64,000 nt of DNA. Source: Flaviflexus ciconiae (GTDB taxonomy: Bacteria > Actinomycetota > Actinomycetes > Actinomycetales > Actinomycetaceae). Location: positions 2,294,001-2,358,000 of the forward strand of contig NZ_CP034593.1 in the NCBI RefSeq assembly GCF_003971195.1. The letters are read 5' to 3'. Below the pieces are notes generated by a model. The model ran no database searches and was not told the DNA's origin. It worked only from the letters and a program-made list of their open reading frames with translations. The first letter of the stretch is position 1. Each line of letters begins with the position of its first letter. The translations under genes and the position numbers were made by a program. Of this stretch, positions 3,911 through 54,799 are shown piece by piece.

Positions 3911-5992
3911 CTAGAAGGGCATGCCACCGCTTTCGGGGAGAGCAGGAGTGTCCAGGGTTGGCTCATCATCCGGGTCTTCACCCTGGGTGAACTGGGACAT
4001 GTAGAGCCGGTAGTACGCGCCCTCCTGTTTGAGCAGGCCCTCGTGAGTTCCCTGCTCAACAATCGCGCCTTCTTCCATAACCAGGATGATGTCGGCTTCG
4101 CGGATCGTGGAGAGCCGGTGTGCGATCACGAAGGAGGTGCGGTCGGTTCGCAGTGCCGCCATGGCCTGCTGAACAAGAAGCTCGGTTCGGGTATCGACAG
4201 ACGAGGTTGCCTCGTCCAGAATCAGCAGTGCCGGCTGAGCAATGAACGCTCGCGCAATTGTGATCAGCTGACGTTCGCCGGTGGAAATGTTCTCGCCGCC
4301 GTCTTCGATGATGGTGTCGTAACCGTCGGGGAGCGTGTGAACGAAACGATCGACATACGTGGCCTTTGCAGCTGCGATGACCTCTTCGTCAGTTGCGTCG
4401 AGCCGGCCGTACCGGATGTTGTCCATGATGGTTCCGCCGAATAGGACAGCGTCCTGGAGGACCATGCCAATCCGGGAGCGTAGCTCACCGCGTTCGAGAA
4501 GTAGCGTGTCGACGCCGTCTAGGCGGATCTGGCCGGATTGGATCTCGTAGAACCGCATGATGAGGTTGACGAGCGTCGTCTTACCGGCACCCGTCGGACC
4601 AACAATTGCAACGACCTGGCCAGGCTCTGCCGTGAGCGACAGGTCGGTGATCAGAGGTTTGTCGGGACTGTACGAGAAGGCGACGTGATCGAACTCGATA
4701 CGGCCCTCTACGGGCTCGGAGAGAATCGCCGGCTGGGGTCCCGACGGGTCGAGGACTCCCTGGTCGGCAAGTTCCTGCAGGTCCGGATCCTGCTCATCAG
4801 CATCGAGAAGCTCGAAGATGCGTTCGGCAGAGGCCACGCCGGAGATCAGCATGTTGGCCATGCCGGCGACCTGGCCGAGCGGCTGGTTAAACTCGCGCGA
4901 GTACTGGATGAAAGCAGTCACGGCGCCGAGAGTCATCTGTCCGTTGGCGACACGCAGACCGCCGACAACGGCGATGCCCACGTAGCCGAGGTAGTTCACC
5001 CACTGCATGATCGGCATGATCATGCCCGAATAGAACTGGGCCTTAAACGAAGCCTCGTAGAGTTCCTCGTTCCGTTCATCGAAACGTTCACCCATCTGCT
5101 CTTGGCGGCCAAAAACCGTCACAAGATCGTGGCCCGTGAACGATTCTTCGATATGTCCGTTGAGCCGGCCCGTATGCCGCCACTGGCTCGTAAACATCTT
5201 CTGGGAGCGGGTGCCAATAATGCCGACGACAATTCCCGACAGGGGAAGAGCAATGAGGGCGATAAGGGCGAGCTGCCAGGACAGGGAGAACATCATGAAG
5301 ATGATGCCGATGATGGTGAGAACCGAGTAGATGACAGAGGTGAAAGCCTGCTGCATCGCGTTCTGCACGTTGTCGACATCGTTCGTGGTGCGCGACAGAA
5401 TGTCACCGCGCGAGTTCGTATCGAAGTAGGCCAGGGGAAGGCGGTTAACTTTCCTCTCAATGTCCTCCCTCATGCGGAACACCATGCGCATGACAATGTC
5501 GTTGAGAATCCTGCCCTGCAACCACATGAAGAACTGGGCAACAACATACATGCCCAAAACGATGGCGATGAGCCGGCCAAGTTCACCGAAGTCAATGCCC
5601 GCTCCGGGCGTGAACTGCATGCCGGACAGCATGTCGACGAGCTGAGCTTCCCCGGCCGCGGCCAGTCCCGCGATGACATCTTCGCGAGAAACCCCTTCCG
5701 GCATGCCGGAAGAAATGAAGCCGCCAAAGATGACATTCATGGCGTCGCCAAGGATGGACGGTGCCCACACGCTGAGAACAACGGCAATGACCACCATGAT
5801 GAAAACCACGGTCAGGGCAATTCGTTCCCGAGCAAACAGGCCCAAAAGGCGAATAGCCGATGGCCAAAATGCTTTCGCCTTGCGAGGCGGCGCAGCGTCG
5901 CCCCAGTCACCCATGTCAACCGAGTCCTGTAGCTCCTCGATCTCCTGGTCGGTCAGCGTGCCGTCATTCTTGGCGTTCTTATCGGTGCTCAT
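3911..5992 (-). CDS. ABC exporter half-transporter, subunit with catalytic Walker B
   Basis: A 693-residue fused membrane/ATPase subunit. Residues ~45-360 hold six membrane helices with the type-I exporter fold. The nucleotide domain (~420-660) has Walker A GPTGAGKTT, Walker B ILDEATSSVD with the catalytic Glu, and H-loop IAHRLST. Its signature is degenerate (STGERQ instead of LSGGQ). The start ATG 5992 overlaps the stop of the upstream subunit (ATGA), so the two are coupled. Paired with its partner it matches heterodimeric exporters of the TM287/288, BmrCD or LmrCD kind. The substrate is unknown. Confidence 0.9.
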   Translation of the reverse strand: MSTDKNAKNDGTLTDQEIEELQDSVDMGDWGDAAPPRKAKAFWPSAIRLLGLFARERIALTVVFIMVVIAVVLSVWAPSILGDAMNVIFGGFISSGMPEGVSREDVIAGLAAAGEAQLVDMLSGMQFTPGAGIDFGELGRLIAIVLGMYVVAQFFMWLQGRILNDIVMRMVFRMREDIERKVNRLPLAYFDTNSRGDILSRTTNDVDNVQNAMQQAFTSVIYSVLTIIGIIFMMFSLSWQLALIALIALPLSGIVVGIIGTRSQKMFTSQWRHTGRLNGHIEESFTGHDLVTVFGRQEQMGERFDERNEELYEASFKAQFYSGMIMPIMQWVNYLGYVGIAVVGGLRVANGQMTLGAVTAFIQYSREFNQPLGQVAGMANMLISGVASAERIFELLDADEQDPDLQELADQGVLDPSGPQPAILSEPVEGRIEFDHVAFSYSPDKPLITDLSLTAEPGQVVAIVGPTGAGKTTLVNLIMRFYEIQSGQIRLDGVDTLLLERGELRSRIGMVLQDAVLFGGTIMDNIRYGRLDATDEEVIAAAKATYVDRFVHTLPDGYDTIIEDGGENISTGERQLITIARAFIAQPALLILDEATSSVDTRTELLVQQAMAALRTDRTSFVIAHRLSTIREADIILVMEEGAIVEQGTHEGLLKQEGAYYRLYMSQFTQGEDPDDEPTLDTPALPESGGMPF

Positions 5993-7746
5993 GCGAGCTC
6001 CTCCTGACTGATCTGAGAATCCACGATCTCCCGGTACGTATCGGAACTAGCAAGCAGCTCCTCGTGGGTTCCGCGGTCAACGATCCGGCCCTCCTCGAGA
6101 ACCAGGATTTGGTCGGCCTCGGTAATCGTTGAGACTCGCTGGGCAACGATAATGACGGTGGCGCCCTCGGTGTAGTTGTTCAACGCGGCCCGGAGATTCG
6201 CATCGGTTGTCACATCCAGCGCGGAGAACGAATCATCAAAAAGGTAGATTCTGGGGCGGGCCGTGAGGGCGCGCGCAATACAGAGGCGCTGGCGCTGACC
6301 ACCCGACACATTCGTGCCGCCCTGGGAAACAGCGGACTCAAGCCCGGTTGCGAGAGCATCCCCGGAACCGGTACTGCGATCCTTCACAAACTCAGTCGCC
6401 TGAGCAGTATCGAGAGCCTCCCACATGTCCTCCTCAGTAGCGCCGGGTGCTCCGAAACGCAGATTGTCGGCAACGGAACCCGAGAACAGGTAGGGGCGCT
6501 GAGGTACGAGACCCACGGCCCCGGTCAACGTACTGCGGCTCAAGCTGTTGACGGGGACACCGTCAATAAGAATCTCGCCAGCCGTGGTGTCGTACAGCCG
6601 GGGAATAAGATTAATGAGAGTGGACTTGCCAGAACCGGTGGAACCGATGATCGCCGTTGTCTTACCCGGGCGGGCAGTAAACGAAATTTCGTCAATAACT
6701 GGTGAGTCGGCACCCGGGTAGGAGAAGGAAACGTTCCGAAACTCGACAGCACCGTCGGTGCTATCGGGAACCCGCGGACTGGTCGGCTCAAGGACGGAGG
6801 TGTCGGTGTCCAGAACCTCACCGATACGGCGGGCACAGATAATCGCGCGCGGGAAAATCATGAACATGAAGGTACCCATCATGACAGCGACCAGGATCTG
6901 CAAAAGGTACTGCATGAAAGCGGTCAGTGAACCGACGTCGACCAAGTTCTGATCGACACGGTGGCCGCCGAACCACAGGACCGCTACTGTTGCCAGGTGC
7001 AGAATGATCGTGACCAGCGGTCCCATGATGACAAACAGCCGGCCGATACGAACCGAAATATCGGTAAGTGTTGAGTTGGCGTCCGTGAACCGGTCTGTCT
7101 CGTAGCGCTCGCGGCGGAAAGCTCGAACAACGCGAATACCCATAATCTGTTCGCGCATCACGCCATTGATTGAGTCGATCGCGTCCTGCATCTTCTGGAA
7201 CAGCGGCATGAGGATCGTCATGAGGATGACAAGGATGACGAGAAGGACCGGAACTGACGCCCACACGAGCCAGGACAGGCCGGGATCCTCCCGGATTGCC
7301 ATGACAATCCCACCGACGGACATGATTGGCACCATGACAACGAAGTTCAACGTCATAAGCAGGACCATCTGGACCTGCTGCACATCGTTCGTCCCACGGG
7401 TGATGAGAGTCGGCGCGCCAAACTTAGCGATCTCCTCCGATGAGAAAGAATCAACCTTCGAGTAGACGGCCTTGCGCAGGTCCCGTCCCACAGACATCGA
7501 AGCGCGCGCACCAAACCAGACGGCAAAAACTGCCGTAACCAGCTGGACGAGGGCAACAACAAGCATGACCCCGCCCGTGCGCCAAATGTAGTCCGTGTCG
7601 CCGAGGGCAACACCCTCATCAATGATGTCGGCGTTGAGGCTCGGCAAATAGAGCGTGGCGAGTGTCGTCAAGGTCTGCAGGACCACGACAGCAACCACCT
7701 GCCCCGAATAAGGCCGCAAATAGTGGCGGATAAGCTTCCAGAGCAT
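5989..7746 (-). CDS. ABC exporter half-transporter, subunit with degenerate Walker B and H-loop
   Basis: A 585-residue fused permease/ATPase when started at ATG 7746 (MLWKLIRHYLRPY); an upstream in-frame start at 7818 adds an unlikely 24 residues. Walker A is GSTGSGKST and the signature is canonical VSGGQRQR. Walker B reads YLFDDSFSALD (Asp in place of catalytic Glu) and the H-loop reads AQRVST (Gln in place of His). Together with the degenerate signature of the partner, this predicts one non-hydrolytic and one active ATP site. It is the first gene of the two-gene operon. Confidence 0.9.
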   Translation of the reverse strand: MLWKLIRHYLRPYSGQVVAVVVLQTLTTLATLYLPSLNADIIDEGVALGDTDYIWRTGGVMLVVALVQLVTAVFAVWFGARASMSVGRDLRKAVYSKVDSFSSEEIAKFGAPTLITRGTNDVQQVQMVLLMTLNFVVMVPIMSVGGIVMAIREDPGLSWLVWASVPVLLVILVILMTILMPLFQKMQDAIDSINGVMREQIMGIRVVRAFRRERYETDRFTDANSTLTDISVRIGRLFVIMGPLVTIILHLATVAVLWFGGHRVDQNLVDVGSLTAFMQYLLQILVAVMMGTFMFMIFPRAIICARRIGEVLDTDTSVLEPTSPRVPDSTDGAVEFRNVSFSYPGADSPVIDEISFTARPGKTTAIIGSTGSGKSTLINLIPRLYDTTAGEILIDGVPVNSLSRSTLTGAVGLVPQRPYLFSGSVADNLRFGAPGATEEDMWEALDTAQATEFVKDRSTGSGDALATGLESAVSQGGTNVSGGQRQRLCIARALTARPRIYLFDDSFSALDVTTDANLRAALNNYTEGATVIIVAQRVSTITEADQILVLEEGRIVDRGTHEELLASSDTYREIVDSQISQEELA

Positions 7747-12151: not shown

Positions 12152-12172
12152 GCGGAGACGGAGGGATTTGAA
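12152..12172. repeat. attL core, duplicated 3' end of tRNA-Ser(GCT)
   Basis: The 21 bases beginning GCGGAGACGGAGG and ending GATTTGAA match 50923-50943 exactly. They correspond to the T-loop, T-stem 3' strand, acceptor 3' strand and discriminator of the tRNA (leftward orientation). Identity stops right after this point on both sides. Confidence 0.85.
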
Positions 12173-12178
12173 ACAAGA

Positions 12179-49596: not shown

Positions 49597-50721
49597 TTAG
49601 ACTCCGCCCATCCGCGAGGACAGCTCCCTATCCCGCGTAGCCGTCGCATGTTGATAAATGGCAACAGTCGCAGGATCAGCGTGCCCCGCACGAGCCATGA
49701 GATCAGCTGTTGTCGCACCCGCCCTGCCAAACAACGTGAGCCCAATATGGCGGAGGTCGTGGAATCTCATCGGAGGTAGTCCAACCTTCATCGCGGCTTT
49801 ATTGAGATCCCGACGCAACACCCGGTCGGATAGGTAGCCGTTTGGGCCGCGCGGCCGGTGAAAGAGCAATGCGTCGAGAGCTGGCGCAGTAAAGCTCTCA
49901 AGATGGTACTGAATAATCGGGAGCGCCTGAGGTGGGATGGAAGGGGAACGATAGCCAGCATCTGACTTGGGTGGACCAATCGACAGGCCGCCGTTTGGTG
50001 CGCGCTTGACGCTCTTGGTCACGTGCACAACTCCAGTTTCCAGATCAATGTCAGCGCGTTCGAGCGCGGCGATCTCGCCGTAGCGAAGTGAGACCCATGA
50101 TCCAAGAGCCCCCGCTGCGCGAGTGTCTTCCGGGAAAGCGTCGATCAGCTCGATGAGCTGTGTGGGTGTGATCATGTGGAAATTTCGTTTCGGAGGCGTC
50201 TTACTCATCGCCCCTTTCACTTTTACTGGGTTCTCGGCTATCAGGCCTTCTTCGACTGCTGCGCCCATACATGCAGAGAAGGACCTGATGACGTTTTTTG
50301 CTGTTTCTTCGGACCGGGTTTCGAGGACGTGCTGAAATTTTTCCGTGCATACCTGCGGGGTTACGTCAGTGAGGGCGAGGTGCCCGAAATCCGGCAATAT
50401 ATGGACCTTGAAAATGCTGCGGTACGCTCTGAGGCTGTTGGGGGAGCGCTTCGCCTTCTCCTGCCGCGAATACCAGGCCTCATACCAAGCCCGCACTGTC
50501 CAGCTCTGATCTGTATCGATGGCAGCTGTGCCCGAGCGGGTCTTCCTGGGTGGCTCCCATTCTCCCGCGAGAATAGCTGCCTCGATCTTGACGAGGTCTG
50601 CTCGTACGGCCTGTTTTGTGCGTTGCGTAGGCGTGTAGTAGGTGCGGCCGTGGCGGCGGTATCGGCCCATGTAGGTGCCGTTCTCGCGCTTGATGAGACT
50701 GCCGAAGTGAGCTCGCGCCAT
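49597..50721 (-). CDS. int: Tyrosine integrase
   Basis: 374 residues. It has an N-terminal AP2-like arm-binding region (GSLIKRENGTYMGRYRRHGRTYYTPTQRTKQ), a core-binding SAM-like domain (~75-165), and a catalytic domain with Arg in SWVSLRYGEIAALERADID, Lys in SIGPPKSDAGYRS, HxxR in RFHDLRHIGLTL, His in AGHAD and Tyr in VAIYQHA. It is encoded next to attR with its start 200 bases from the tRNA, the usual arrangement for integration into a tRNA 3' end. Confidence 0.9.
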   Translation of the reverse strand: MARAHFGSLIKRENGTYMGRYRRHGRTYYTPTQRTKQAVRADLVKIEAAILAGEWEPPRKTRSGTAAIDTDQSWTVRAWYEAWYSRQEKAKRSPNSLRAYRSIFKVHILPDFGHLALTDVTPQVCTEKFQHVLETRSEETAKNVIRSFSACMGAAVEEGLIAENPVKVKGAMSKTPPKRNFHMITPTQLIELIDAFPEDTRAAGALGSWVSLRYGEIAALERADIDLETGVVHVTKSVKRAPNGGLSIGPPKSDAGYRSPSIPPQALPIIQYHLESFTAPALDALLFHRPRGPNGYLSDRVLRRDLNKAAMKVGLPPMRFHDLRHIGLTLFGRAGATTADLMARAGHADPATVAIYQHATATRDRELSSRMGGV

Positions 50722-50922: not shown

Positions 50923-50943
50923 GCGGAGACGGAGGGATTTGAA
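50923..50943. repeat. attR core within tRNA-Ser(GCT)
   Basis: The 21 bases are identical to 12152-12172. Here they are part of the intact tRNA gene, so integration restores a functional tRNA. Confidence 0.85.
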
Positions 50944-51013
50944 CCCTCGAGGGGCTATACACCCCTACCTCCTTAGCAGGGAGGCGCACTCGACCTGACT
51001 ATGCGACGTCTCC
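50924..51013 (-). tRNA. tRNA-Ser(GCT)
   Basis: 90 nt. Acceptor GGAGACG/CGTCTCC with discriminator G; anticodon loop CTGCTAA (GCT, reads AGC/AGT) on a CTCC/GGAG stem; long class-II variable arm; T-arm GAGGG-TTCAAAT-CCCTC. CCA is not encoded. It is the attachment site of the prophage. Confidence 0.95.
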
Positions 51014-51063: not shown

Positions 51064-51618
51064 CTAATAAAGGCCATGGCTGTTGCCGATATCGCTTATT
51101 GCAAAGTCTGAGGGTCGTGGGTTCTCCCACTTGAAAATCACGGTTTCCGTCAGGACGCTCGTGACTCGGTGGAGATTGATGGTCCATATTCCGGAGCGAC
51201 GTGTCCGCATTTCGGTGTCCGTGATTTGAACCAGGCCCGTGATGTGTCCGCTGAGTTTACCGTCCTTCATAATGGCGGTGCCGTCACCGGTTGGTTCCAG
51301 CTCGGCTATCCAGTCGGGGACTGCGAATCCTTCAATCTTGATCTCTTGCGTTGGCCATTCCGGATGAACAAACGATAGGAGGCACGTCGTCCGGTTGAGT
51401 GCCTCTGCCATTGCAAAGGACTGAAGCATGACTGCGGAGTCCGAATCAAGGTCGATTGCGTACTCGTTGGCGGGCCTCGGCAGAAGAGAGGTGGGTTCGG
51501 TGGCGCATCCGACGAGGAACCGAGGATTGAACTCGTTGTCCTTGAGCAGATTGATCCGTCCTGAAAGATCTGCGGAGAACCAGAGGTCGTCCTCCCAGGT
51601 CATTTCGTACATCAGCAT
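51064..51618 (-). CDS. Unknown protein, 184 residues
   Basis: It starts at ATG 51618 behind AAGGA. β-rich soluble sequence (FLVGCATEPTSLLPRP, TCLLSFVHPEWPTQEIKIEGFAVPDWIAELEP), without signal peptide or membrane segment. No family recognised. It follows the methylase-like operon after 168 bases holding three hairpins, so it may be a regulated third gene of that operon or a separate unit. Confidence 0.65.
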   Translation of the reverse strand: MLMYEMTWEDDLWFSADLSGRINLLKDNEFNPRFLVGCATEPTSLLPRPANEYAIDLDSDSAVMLQSFAMAEALNRTTCLLSFVHPEWPTQEIKIEGFAVPDWIAELEPTGDGTAIMKDGKLSGHITGLVQITDTEMRTRRSGIWTINLHRVTSVLTETVIFKWENPRPSDFAISDIGNSHGLY

Positions 51619-51786: not shown

Positions 51787-53832
51787 CTACTGAGCGGATG
51801 CCTTACTCGGGTCGAGTTCAACCCCATATCGGATGCCGTCCAGGATAGTTATCCGGAGAGCTTCTGCTTGAGAGACCAGCTTTTGTGCTGTCTCTTCGAT
51901 GTCTCGAACCTTGTTGAGTTCGTTGACCAAAGTTGCTTGGGCCTGCGGTGTCAGTGCGGGAATTTCGGCTTGACGGACTCGGCGCATTGACATGATCGAG
52001 CGTGGTTCGTTTGGTCGGTTGTTCCAGGACCCTGAGAGTGCAGCGAGAAGGAACTCGGGTCTGAGCGCCTCCGGATCCTCAACACGCAGCACCGTCATGA
52101 GTGGTGAAATGGCCCGAGAGCCCTCATGGTCGACCACCGTGATTAACCCGCGGGTTGCCGACACGATAATGTCACCCGGCTTGGTAAGTTCGAGATCGTA
52201 TTTCTTTGCGACGTTCTGAGGGATTGGCTCGGGGAGCTCGCCAGTCGATACGTGCTCTGGTTTGACCGTGCGGTTCTGATATTTTTCGGGCAGTTCACGG
52301 ATGCCTCGGTGATGGCCGGAAACCACCGTGAGCGTGCCCTGTGAGGCAAGCTCGTCGATCGTTACCACCCCAGGATTGCTCGCGGCAGAGAACTTTTCGG
52401 TCAGAAGTGTGCCACCTGGATCAGCCAGGGGAGAAGACAGTACTGCGGCTAGGGCCCCGGCAAAGTCTTCTTGGATCTTGTCCTCATCCACATTCGCATC
52501 TGACACCCATTTGCTGGGACTCAGCGGTGCGTTGCCCTTGAGCAGTTCCGAGTTCGGCACGAATGCCTGAGCGAGCTCGGAACCGGCTGAGTCCTCAGCG
52601 AGAACCCACCCAGCAAGTGCCTCCTCGGGATCTTCGAAATCTCGAGCGTCGATGAAACGAACTTGCAGAGAGCCCTCTTCCGCGGGCCGGAGAGCCCACA
52701 AAGTGAGCGTCATGTGTGACTGCGGAAGCATGTTGGCGGGCAAGGTGGTAATCGACTCGATGTGGTTACCGAGAAGAAGGCTTTCAATGATCTTGTTCTT
52801 TGACGTCAGCTCGGAGAGTCGACTGTGCGGGGCAATGACGAATGCTCGCCCGTTCGGTGCCAGATGAGAAAGAGCATGCTGGATCCAGGCTAGCTCCGCC
52901 TCAATGCGTGACGGGACTCCGTGCGAGAACCGCGGATCATCATCGGCGTGGGCACTATCCCACCGCATGCCAAACGGTGGTTCAATGACAATCGTGTCCG
53001 CGGTCAGGTCCGGAACCGGGTCTTTGGCAAGAGCATCGCCAAGGTGCAGCTCGAGCTCAAGGTCCCGAAGGTAGGCGCGCTGAGCGGCAACATCAATTGC
53101 TGCGGGGTCGATCTCGGAACCGACTAGACGTGTTGCCTTCCCGGATGTTCCTACCTGGAGGAGGACATTCGCGATCCCCGAAGCCGGGTCGTAGACGGTG
53201 CCACCAACTCCCTGAGCTAATGCCGAGAGCAGCCTCGAGGTTCGGGAGCCAATGAATCCGTGCTCGCCCCCGCTCTTGACCTGATGGCGGGTGACCCGCT
53301 CGAGGAGAAGATCGGTAGTTTCCGCTAACTGATCGGTGTCGATACCCGCGATTGTGTTGATCAGCTGCGACAGCGCCTTCTTGTCGATAACTTCGAGTAC
53401 CTCGAGGTCGCTACCCGGCGTCAGGTTAGGCACGCTGTTGCGGAGCGTCGTAAGCATCTCCCGAACCGCGGGCGCCTGCTTACCGGGCTCGAGTGCGATC
53501 AGCAGTTCGAGATTGTCCGAGTTCTGCTTCTTGAGGGCGGCGAGAGCCAGGAGGAGTCGAGTGACCCCATCCAGCGGGGCGGCTCCCCGAACGGTGTTGA
53601 GAAGAGTCCACAGCTGAGCGTCGGGCCTGGGGAGCTCGACCTCGTGGCCGCGCTCCTGCAGCCAGGCAATAACGTCGGTCTGCGAGAAAAGTGGGCGGGC
53701 GTCGGTTCCGCCGACGGGGGAAGGGAAGTCTTCATTGCGTCGGCGCCAGTTGCTGACAACGGGCCTGCTGACCTTGGCCAGCTCGGCAATATCGGATGGG
53801 GAAAGGAGGATAAGGGACGAGTTGATGGTCAT
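51787..53832 (-). CDS. HTH / N6-adenine-methylase-like protein with atypical EPPF motif
   Basis: 681 residues. The N-terminal helix-turn-helix (SPSDIAELAKVSRPVVSNWRRRNEDFPSPVGGTDARPLFSQTDVIAWL) is followed by a helical region. A Rossmann methylase core starts ~200 (YDPASGIANVLLQVG as motif I; VGSEIDPAAIDVAAQRAYL; LGDAL). Motif IV reads IVIEPPFGMRW, with Glu where N6-methylases have Asn, Asp or Ser. A C-terminal specificity-like region (from ~500: LPEPIPQNVAKKYDLELTKPGDIIVSATRG) resembles type I S/M proteins. It overlaps the NYN gene by four bases. DNA binding is likely; catalysis is doubtful. Confidence 0.75.
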   Translation of the reverse strand: MTINSSLILLSPSDIAELAKVSRPVVSNWRRRNEDFPSPVGGTDARPLFSQTDVIAWLQERGHEVELPRPDAQLWTLLNTVRGAAPLDGVTRLLLALAALKKQNSDNLELLIALEPGKQAPAVREMLTTLRNSVPNLTPGSDLEVLEVIDKKALSQLINTIAGIDTDQLAETTDLLLERVTRHQVKSGGEHGFIGSRTSRLLSALAQGVGGTVYDPASGIANVLLQVGTSGKATRLVGSEIDPAAIDVAAQRAYLRDLELELHLGDALAKDPVPDLTADTIVIEPPFGMRWDSAHADDDPRFSHGVPSRIEAELAWIQHALSHLAPNGRAFVIAPHSRLSELTSKNKIIESLLLGNHIESITTLPANMLPQSHMTLTLWALRPAEEGSLQVRFIDARDFEDPEEALAGWVLAEDSAGSELAQAFVPNSELLKGNAPLSPSKWVSDANVDEDKIQEDFAGALAAVLSSPLADPGGTLLTEKFSAASNPGVVTIDELASQGTLTVVSGHHRGIRELPEKYQNRTVKPEHVSTGELPEPIPQNVAKKYDLELTKPGDIIVSATRGLITVVDHEGSRAISPLMTVLRVEDPEALRPEFLLAALSGSWNNRPNEPRSIMSMRRVRQAEIPALTPQAQATLVNELNKVRDIEETAQKLVSQAEALRITILDGIRYGVELDPSKASAQ

Positions 53833-54341
53833 GCGGCTTCCGTGTAGTCAGTCTGCGAGAGCAGATCGTCGAGAAAATAAGTTGTGTTGGCAACGAGCCT
53901 GAGATGTGCAGAAAGGCTGTCAGCCCAGCCGGCGACGGTGACATGCACTCCGTCGGCGCGAAGGGCCGCGATGGCATCGGTAAAGATGTGATCTCCCGAG
54001 ATGATGAGAACCTCGTCGTAGCGGGAGGCAAGATCCTCTGTCTCAAGAATGTTGAGAAGTGCGAGGTCCGCGCCATCATCCCCGTCTTGCATGACAATCC
54101 GGGAACTCTGCCATGTCGCGCCGATATTGACGGCTCCCAGTCGGCAGGTGCCGAAGATCAGCTGATCGGAGTCGTTTACGACACCGCGATTCTCGAAGAG
54201 CTGCTTAGCCCACTGCGCCTGGTCGAGGGTTGTCACGGCACCTCCCACAATATTCTCGATATCGATGAGAACAATCCGGCGACCCCGAGTGGGAATTCCG
54301 AGCCTTGCCATCGTCGCAACATCCGTCAGCATTTCAACCAT
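53829..54341 (-). CDS. NYN-domain nuclease-like protein
   Basis: 170 residues. NYN/PIN-like core: RRIVLIDIENIVGGAV (first acidic residue), GADLALLNILETEDLASRYDEVLIISGDHIF (conserved Asp pairs and SGD), IAALRADGVHVTVAGWADSLSAHLRLVANTTYFL. It is the first gene of a two-gene operon with the methylase-like protein. The family cleaves RNA. With a DNA-binding partner in the same operon, a nucleic-acid surveillance or defence role is plausible but unproven. Confidence 0.75.
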   Translation of the reverse strand: MVEMLTDVATMARLGIPTRGRRIVLIDIENIVGGAVTTLDQAQWAKQLFENRGVVNDSDQLIFGTCRLGAVNIGATWQSSRIVMQDGDDGADLALLNILETEDLASRYDEVLIISGDHIFTDAIAALRADGVHVTVAGWADSLSAHLRLVANTTYFLDDLLSQTDYTEAA

Positions 54342-54350
54342 CTACTTTCT

Positions 54351-54428
54351 GTTAATCAAATTAACTACCTTGCATACTTCAACTATGGGGGAGTGGTTTA
54401 GCAGTTGTCAAGTGTTAATTTGATTCAC
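54351..54428 (-). promoter_or_regulatory. Promoter flanked by twin operator sites
   Basis: Read leftward, a perfect -35 TTGACA (54411-54406), an 18-base spacer and CATAGT (54387-54382). GTTAATCAAATTAAC (54351-54365, palindrome) lies between the expected start of transcription and the gene. Its inverse, matching 14 of 15 positions, lies at 54414-54428 just upstream of -35. Autorepression by the HTH partner protein is a natural reading. Confidence 0.65.
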
Positions 54429-54709: not shown

Positions 54710-54711
54710 CG

Positions 54712-54799
54712 CGGAGGGTGGGGGATTCGAACCCCCGATACGGGATCGCCGTATAACGGTTTTCAAGACCGTCTCATTCGGCCGCTCTGACAACCCTCC
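54712..54799 (-). tRNA. tRNA-Ser(TGA)
   Basis: 88 nt. Acceptor GGAGGGT/ACCCTCC with discriminator G; anticodon loop CTTGAAA (TGA) on a GGT/ACC-closed stem; long variable arm (TACGGCGATCCCGTA); T-arm GGGGG-TTCGAAT-CCCCC. CCA is not encoded. Confidence 0.95.

Follow-up and report, generated by a model that had tools for sequence, protein, structure and literature searches.

Introduction

PrrC is a tRNA-Lys anticodon nuclease that is silenced by the linked type IC restriction-modification (R-M) enzyme EcoprrI and released by a phage anti-restriction peptide (available portions of PMC3874165, PMC3710099 and PMC2610378). Here we compare this and other described systems with a gene pair from Flaviflexus ciconiae, located in a stretch of 64,000 nucleotides (NZ_CP034593.1, positions 2,294,001 to 2,358,000) that is referred to as the window. 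The pair codes for a 170-residue NYN-domain protein, a predicted ribonuclease (RNase; 53829-54341, minus strand), and for a 681-residue protein (51787-53832, minus strand) in which a helix-turn-helix (HTH) precedes an HsdM-like core, whose motif IV reads EPPF, and a half resembling HsdS. With PrrC-EcoprrI it shares the linkage of an RNase gene with type I R-M genes and a methylase-type DNA-binding complex that holds the RNase, the latter being only our model for the pair. PrrC is, however, a HEPN protein with an ABC ATPase, whereas the effector of the pair is NYN (PIN-like); moreover, the pair adds a separate HTH/pseudo-HsdM/half-HsdS protein, half of its loci have no R-M genes beside them, and in the window the pair has neither a HEPN/ABC-ATPase nuclease nor R-M genes next to it.

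Type I HsdM and HsdS subunits, e.g. those of EcoR124II and PacII (M1/M2), resemble the 681-residue protein in that its profile matches HsdM (7vru_A, 7bst_D) and HsdS chains, but the window protein has an N-terminal HTH, a single target recognition domain (TRD) in the same chain, a Glu in motif IV, and has lost GExTP. The NYN RNases MARF1, VPA0982 and the CRISPR-associated NYN protein of B. fragilis have three catalytic aspartates at matching places (sections of PMC11346440 and PMC6294520). The NYN protein studied here differs from them in pairing with a methylase-like protein instead of RNA-binding domains or CRISPR, and its RNase activity is a prediction. Finally, MADS has a gene set of eight genes, of which the PADLOC model mad2 matches residues 149-404 (E 8.9e-23) and the HTH of mad1 matches weakly (E 0.015); the mad2 match is, however, a generic one to a methylase and is surpassed by the top model, PDLC03037 (E 7.5e-42), and in a scan of the pair and a neighbouring 184-residue open reading frame (ORF; P0001-P0003, the ORF being P0003) mad1 and mad2 matched P0001 only and no other gene of the set was identified.

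The NYN protein and its conserved partner

The two ORFs of the pair share 4 bp (ATGA) on the minus strand. Pfam recognizes the NYN domain (E 1.1e-6, 29.7 bits, cut-off 24.2), and residues D27, E29, N30, D92, G116, D117 and F120 are invariant in 13 aligned relatives, so that both an NYN/PIN-like domain and conserved acidic residues are present. D27, D92 and D117 align with the positions of the NYN catalytic aspartates; in VPA0982 and the MARF1 NYN domain the sites matching these three are catalytic according to the accessible text of PMC11346440, and the NYN profile matches both proteins weakly (E 0.0014 to 0.016). From its sequence the protein is thus predicted to be an RNase with its catalytic aspartates kept. 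The modelled structure of NYN alone has a mean predicted local distance difference test (pLDDT) score of 57.4, and no structural claim rests on it.

Among 200 genomes of the family the methylase-like gene (E up to 1e-40) is present in seven, the window's own included, and in all seven the NYN gene lies directly upstream on the same strand. NYN relatives (E up to 1e-6) occur in 10 of the 200 genomes, three of which, G003 of the same genus, G126 and G186, have no partner beside the NYN gene. All eight plasmid records with an NYN match carry the pair (12 records examined of 1962 matched). Wider searches covered 396 genomes of the order, 396 of the phylum and 394 of the class (44 places listed, 14 of them without a locus, 13 of these left out) and brought the total of co-directional NYN/methylase-like loci to 21; in six further loci, all from family f105 and five of them close kin, the two genes are divergent. 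As homologues of 24-37% identity still have both genes side by side, the pairing is more than chance. The scan of genome_contigs yielded one distant locus and that of viral_contigs four, the latter matching the N-terminal part only (query residues 9-129 at most); the NYN scan of viral_contigs gave no match, and none of the 33 phage records matched covers 80% of the query.

A methylase-like protein with eroded methylase signatures

The 681-residue protein matches Pfam N6_Mtase at residues 166-398 (E 1.3e-30) and, below the 27-bit cut-off of that family, HTH_17 at residues 9-61 (E 2.2e-4, 21.9 bits). In a profile of 12 relatives the C-terminal part matches the HsdS chains 5ybb_D, 3okg_A and 1yf2_A (E 1.9e-10 to 2.6e-8), and 5 of the 12 match Pfam Methylase_S (E up to 0.1). 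ORFs, Pfam and profile matches bear out the original prediction of an NYN gene overlapping that of a 681-residue protein with HTH, methylase core, type I-like C-terminus and EPPF. The model of this protein alone (mean pLDDT 35.6) likewise carries no structural claim.

Motif I of the window protein reads YDPASGIA and motif IV IVIEPPFG, while motif IV of HsdM is typically NPP(Y/F/W) (passages of PMC3874165) and its first residue is Asn in 15 of 15 HsdM-type rows compared. In 63 family proteins this residue is E (19), N (17), H (11), S (5), A (5), D (4), T (1) or Y (1), and in the 21 co-directional NYN loci E (17), N (2), H (1) or D (1). The 63 proteins were selected by a model start of at most 12, an end over 600 and a score over 200 bits, with loci that repeat an already counted genome removed. 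The partial L124 was included by hand, and the motif IV count leaves aside two other partial relatives, L047 and L067, each with Asn. L036 and L119 are nearly identical, and a close relationship also links several f21 and f105 members. Two of the HsdM-type rows are ORFs of the single locus L121, that at 5811-7319 being taken in without a further check, and four come from L128-L131.

In the 17 Glu-type proteins the Glu of motif IV is one of 22 invariant columns of 670. The pocket motif (A/G)GE(F/Y/H)xTP, searched as a regular expression, is found in none of the 63 family proteins vs. 13 of the 15 HsdM-type rows; its start (AGEF/AAEF) forms the catalytic pocket of PacII together with NPP(F/Y) (relevant parts of PMC9613975). 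At its place only L123 among the Glu-type proteins has TP, which several NYN-less and divergent members keep. Similarly, the second glycine of motif I (GxG) is present in 5 of the 17 Glu-type proteins, i.e. lost in 12, vs. 38 of 46 other family members and 15 of 15 HsdM-type rows. All three marks of a gamma-class N6-adenine methyltransferase (HsdM), the motif IV form, the pocket motif and the GxG of motif I, are missing from the window protein. Mean pairwise identity in the 17 is highest for the HTH (48%), followed by the methylase core (37%) and the TRD (26%). In the tree the window protein groups with three genus relatives (98/84), and the 17 Glu-type, NYN-linked proteins group with the NYN-less L125 (ETPF) and L126 (TPPM).

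We rejected the idea that Glu is a slip or local decay, as 17 of 21 co-directional relatives have it and it is invariant in them, and also that it is a universal mark of NYN pairing, as N, D or H occur at other NYN-linked loci. Since Glu is invariant in the 17 and other methylase signatures are eroded, we infer that the Glu-type proteins are pseudo-methylases, i.e. probably a conserved non-methylating lineage and not a decaying enzyme. The pair search and motif IV alignment that the original prediction had set as checks agree with it in that pairing is kept across genera and plasmids and Glu is conserved as the residue of a lineage; the more distant NYN-linked relatives have N, D or H in its place.

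We note in passing that HTH-methylase-like proteins without a nearby NYN gene (L103-L112, L115 and other f21/f105 loci) have S, A or H at motif IV across whole clades, which may point to a broader family of methylase-like regulators whose catalytic residue is relaxed.

Type I R-M genes beside the pair

At 10 of the 21 co-directional loci the next genes are hsdM and hsdS, namely on plasmids of Mycolicibacterium alvei, Dietzia kunjamensis and two C. glutamicum strains and in the genomes G007, G134, G132, G1194, G550 and G842; G842 encodes its TRD piece in an ORF of its own, placed between the two methylase genes. Nine of these 10 loci also show hsdR, as two ORFs in L024, and the stretch of L023 ends too early to show it. 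At an eleventh locus, L120, a recombinase comes after what is left of hsdM. HsdM proteins of different loci are 23 to 90% identical and form several groups. The module looks as if it had been exchanged between R-M operons, because HsdM of L023 and L025 is 90% identical, whereas their methylase-like proteins share only 32-33%. HTH-methylase-like genes without a co-directional NYN gene also precede hsdM and hsdS in L128-L131, L129 having a divergent NYN gene.

The window's pair has no hsd genes beside it; its genome has an hsd operon elsewhere, at about 2514.5 kb of G000:C1. In the genus hsdM exceeds the TIGR00497 cut-off in all four genomes that have the pair and in neither of the two that lack it, vs. 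67 of 200 family genomes; the match in G001 is a truncated gene, and a second hsdM of G001, below the cut-off, sits in an hsdM-hsdS-hsdR operon. With such small numbers the co-occurrence is suggestive only. The distant operon (L140 7503-15960; G000:C1, about 2514.5-2523 kb) comprises hsdM, an Mrr-type endonuclease, a 180-residue one-domain hsdS, hsdR and a 795-residue AAA_13 protein (418 bits). AAA_13 we take to be the Pfam family that holds PrrC, and this protein beside restriction genes is a PrrC/RloC-like candidate.

Operator-like palindromes

Two operator-like palindromes lie upstream of the NYN gene on the minus strand: GTGAATCAAATTAAC (54414-54428), upstream of the -35 element, and GTTAATTTGATTAAC (54351-54365), 63 bp from the first and just upstream of the NYN start. 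Position 54428, where the original prediction had ended the locus, is the outer edge of the first. Between them is a promoter-like TTGACA-18-CATAGT (54382-54411, minus strand), which is weak by itself (one found, mean of shuffles 0.5). The pattern GTKAATNNNATTAAC has one other place in the 2.83-Mb genome; this exact match (L086 1501-1515; G000:C1:2587552-2587566) is near unassigned ORFs and may be due to chance.

A GTKAA-N5-TTMAC site with 9 or 10 of 10 matches is found in 10 of 28 NYN upstream windows vs. 38 of 3151 background windows, and pairs 54-70 bp apart (each site with at least 8 of 10 matches) in 10 of 20 co-directional loci vs. 21 of 6424 background windows; L035 with its broken NYN frame was left out, hence 20 loci. 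Because the pattern was chosen with the upstream sequences in view, the comparison with background is partly circular. No operator pair is seen at the six divergent loci or at the two NYN genes without a partner that were scanned (L026, L027); four of the divergent loci, close kin, have GTTGA-N5-TCAAC. As palindrome pairs are enriched upstream of NYN, the HTH probably autoregulates the operon through them.

Chromosomal setting

The pair sits in the space between tRNA-Ser(gct) (window 50923-51013, minus strand; downstream border) and tRNA-Ser(tga) (54711-54799, minus strand; upstream border) in 4 of 6 genus genomes. The interval from tRNA to tRNA is 3697 bp in the window and 2782, 2918 and 2980 bp in G001, G002 and G004, shrinking to 1141 bp with NYN alone in G003 and to 491 bp without a pair in G005. 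The pair of G001, G002 and G004 is 35-47% identical to that of the window and three flanking genes are 64-86% identical, i.e. by sequence comparison the pair evolves fast and occupies a presence/absence slot. Between the pair and tRNA-Ser(gct) is the 184-residue ORF (51064-51618), for which the libraries tried gave no convincing relative.

Attachment-site (att)-like copies of the tRNA-Ser(gct) end (12154-12174 and 50925-50945) border a probable prophage of about 38.8 kb (12154-50945), whose integrase (49597-50721, minus strand) adjoins this tRNA. A near-identity search with 23 kb of it (26000-49000) found no near-identical phage record. We rejected the pair as prophage cargo because it is located on the other side of tRNA-Ser(gct), beyond the bracketed region of about 12.15-50.95 kb. 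Thus, the original prediction of a phage integration site in the adjacent tRNA fits tRNA-Ser(gct), which looks like an attachment site, but the pair itself is outside the prophage, between two tRNA-Ser genes.

Discussion

Our tentative reading, to which we give a probability of roughly 0.4, is that the pair is a restriction-associated RNase switch in which NYN is the effector and a pseudo-methylase that binds DNA does the sensing and regulation. It would be an undescribed defence module in which a pseudo-methyltransferase with TRD and HTH has turned into a sensor of the state of DNA or restriction and controls an NYN RNase that is exchangeable for PIN, the whole being portable between unrelated type I R-M operons. 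The second protein is still composed like a type I HsdM fused to a single HsdS-like half for DNA recognition, but signatures of its adenine-methylation pocket are lost. Its HTH would probably bind the paired palindromes around its own promoter and keep expression low, and the pseudo-methylase may read DNA or restriction status, e.g. unmodified DNA or a phage anti-restriction protein. Once disturbed, it would raise or license the NYN RNase, which may serve as a second line of defence by cutting RNA of the cell or the phage, a logic like that of PrrC with EcoprrI built from unrelated parts. Sensing, licensing and defence are functions that we infer for the module. The NYN-less lineage member L125 has a PIN-domain gene two overlapping genes downstream (PIN 24.5 bits, cut-off 23.6; PIN_3 26.6, cut-off 27), which we count in favour of an RNase as partner. 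The defence role of the original prediction gains from the defence context of about half of the co-directional loci, which immediately precede type I R-M genes; the pair itself is outside the prophage.

Several observations weigh against this reading. No hsd genes lie directly downstream of the pair in the window, G001, G002, G004, C. comes and C. atrinae, nor in two near-identical Rhodococcus plasmids (one cut by the end of its record), G509 and the broken L035. All six divergent NYN loci have canonical NPPF, and L127, without NYN and elsewhere in the tree, has Glu outside the lineage, so Glu arose more than once; the support of the lineage itself (80/99) is below the starred level. No NYN gene was seen near 36 of the 63 HTH-methylase-like genes (none within 400 bp, most loci having about 1.5 kb of flank), therefore the family has other roles. 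The operator pair is absent from 10 of the 20 co-directional loci scanned. Finally, the solitary NYN gene of G003 with intact aspartates speaks against a partner needed only for silencing; it suggests one that licenses the RNase or directs it to its target.

Alternatively, the pair may control restriction, an HTH-methylase-like repressor and an NYN protein that trims transcripts allowing the safe entry of a type I R-M operon into a new cell. We consider this unlikely. That the pair comes before hsdM at 10 of 21 co-directional loci agrees with it, as do the like position of the methylase-like gene in L128-L131 without a co-directional NYN gene and the operator-like pairs at the first promoter, but a second operator before hsdM with 9 or 10 of 10 matches is found in none of ten methylase-like/hsdM gaps (8 of 10 matches only, one in L031 and two in L124), and the window's genus keeps the pair without R-M genes beside it.

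A still smaller chance is left for an addiction module, i.e. an NYN RNase toxin with the methylase-like protein as antitoxin and autorepressor. PIN-fold toxins are well known in VapBC, and an overlapping two-gene operon with operator-like pairs, present on eight plasmid records, would suit such a system. Usual antitoxins are, however, far smaller than this multidomain partner of 650-700 residues, the NYN gene of G003 stands alone with its aspartates intact, and the link to type I R-M would be left unexplained. Just as improbable is a housekeeping regulator that has recruited an RNase and is unrelated to defence, for which the single chromosomal slot in four of six genus genomes and the NYN-less relatives, frequent in large-genome families in the wider genome search, can be cited; the low identity of the pair compared with that of its flanking genes, the empty slot in G005, the plasmid copies and the R-M neighbours argue against it. 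Least likely is a methylase that is still active despite its unusual motif IV, perhaps serving as a second M subunit of the kind found in m6A/m4C (N6-methyladenine/N4-methylcytosine) type I enzymes. In its favour, the motif I Asp and PP(F/L) are mostly kept, 7vru_A of PacII is the best PDB match of the profile and some family members have canonical NPPF or DPPY; against it, Glu is outside N/D/S, GE(F/Y/H)xTP and in 12 of 17 proteins the second glycine of motif I are gone, m6A/m4C enzymes keep NPPF or NPPY in both M subunits (excerpts of PMC9613975), and no HsdM lies beside the window's gene.

We found no description of an NYN/methylase-like pair in the open-access literature, a weak negative as most subscription papers and all bioRxiv preprints were outside its scope; in the available text, NYN is absent from the main text of PMC8547433 and occurs in PMC3710099 and PMC10853773 in the reference list only. 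The conserved NYN/pseudo-methylase pair is best placed among restriction-associated RNase systems, as a variant with different parts. If the switch reading is true, a sensor that sets off RNA cleavage would have been built from parts of type I restriction, and the PrrC logic would exist in a second, independent form on actinobacterial chromosomes and plasmids, those of C. glutamicum included. Moreover, a group of genes annotated as N-6 DNA methylase would not be methylases, which would matter for methylome and defence-gene annotation.

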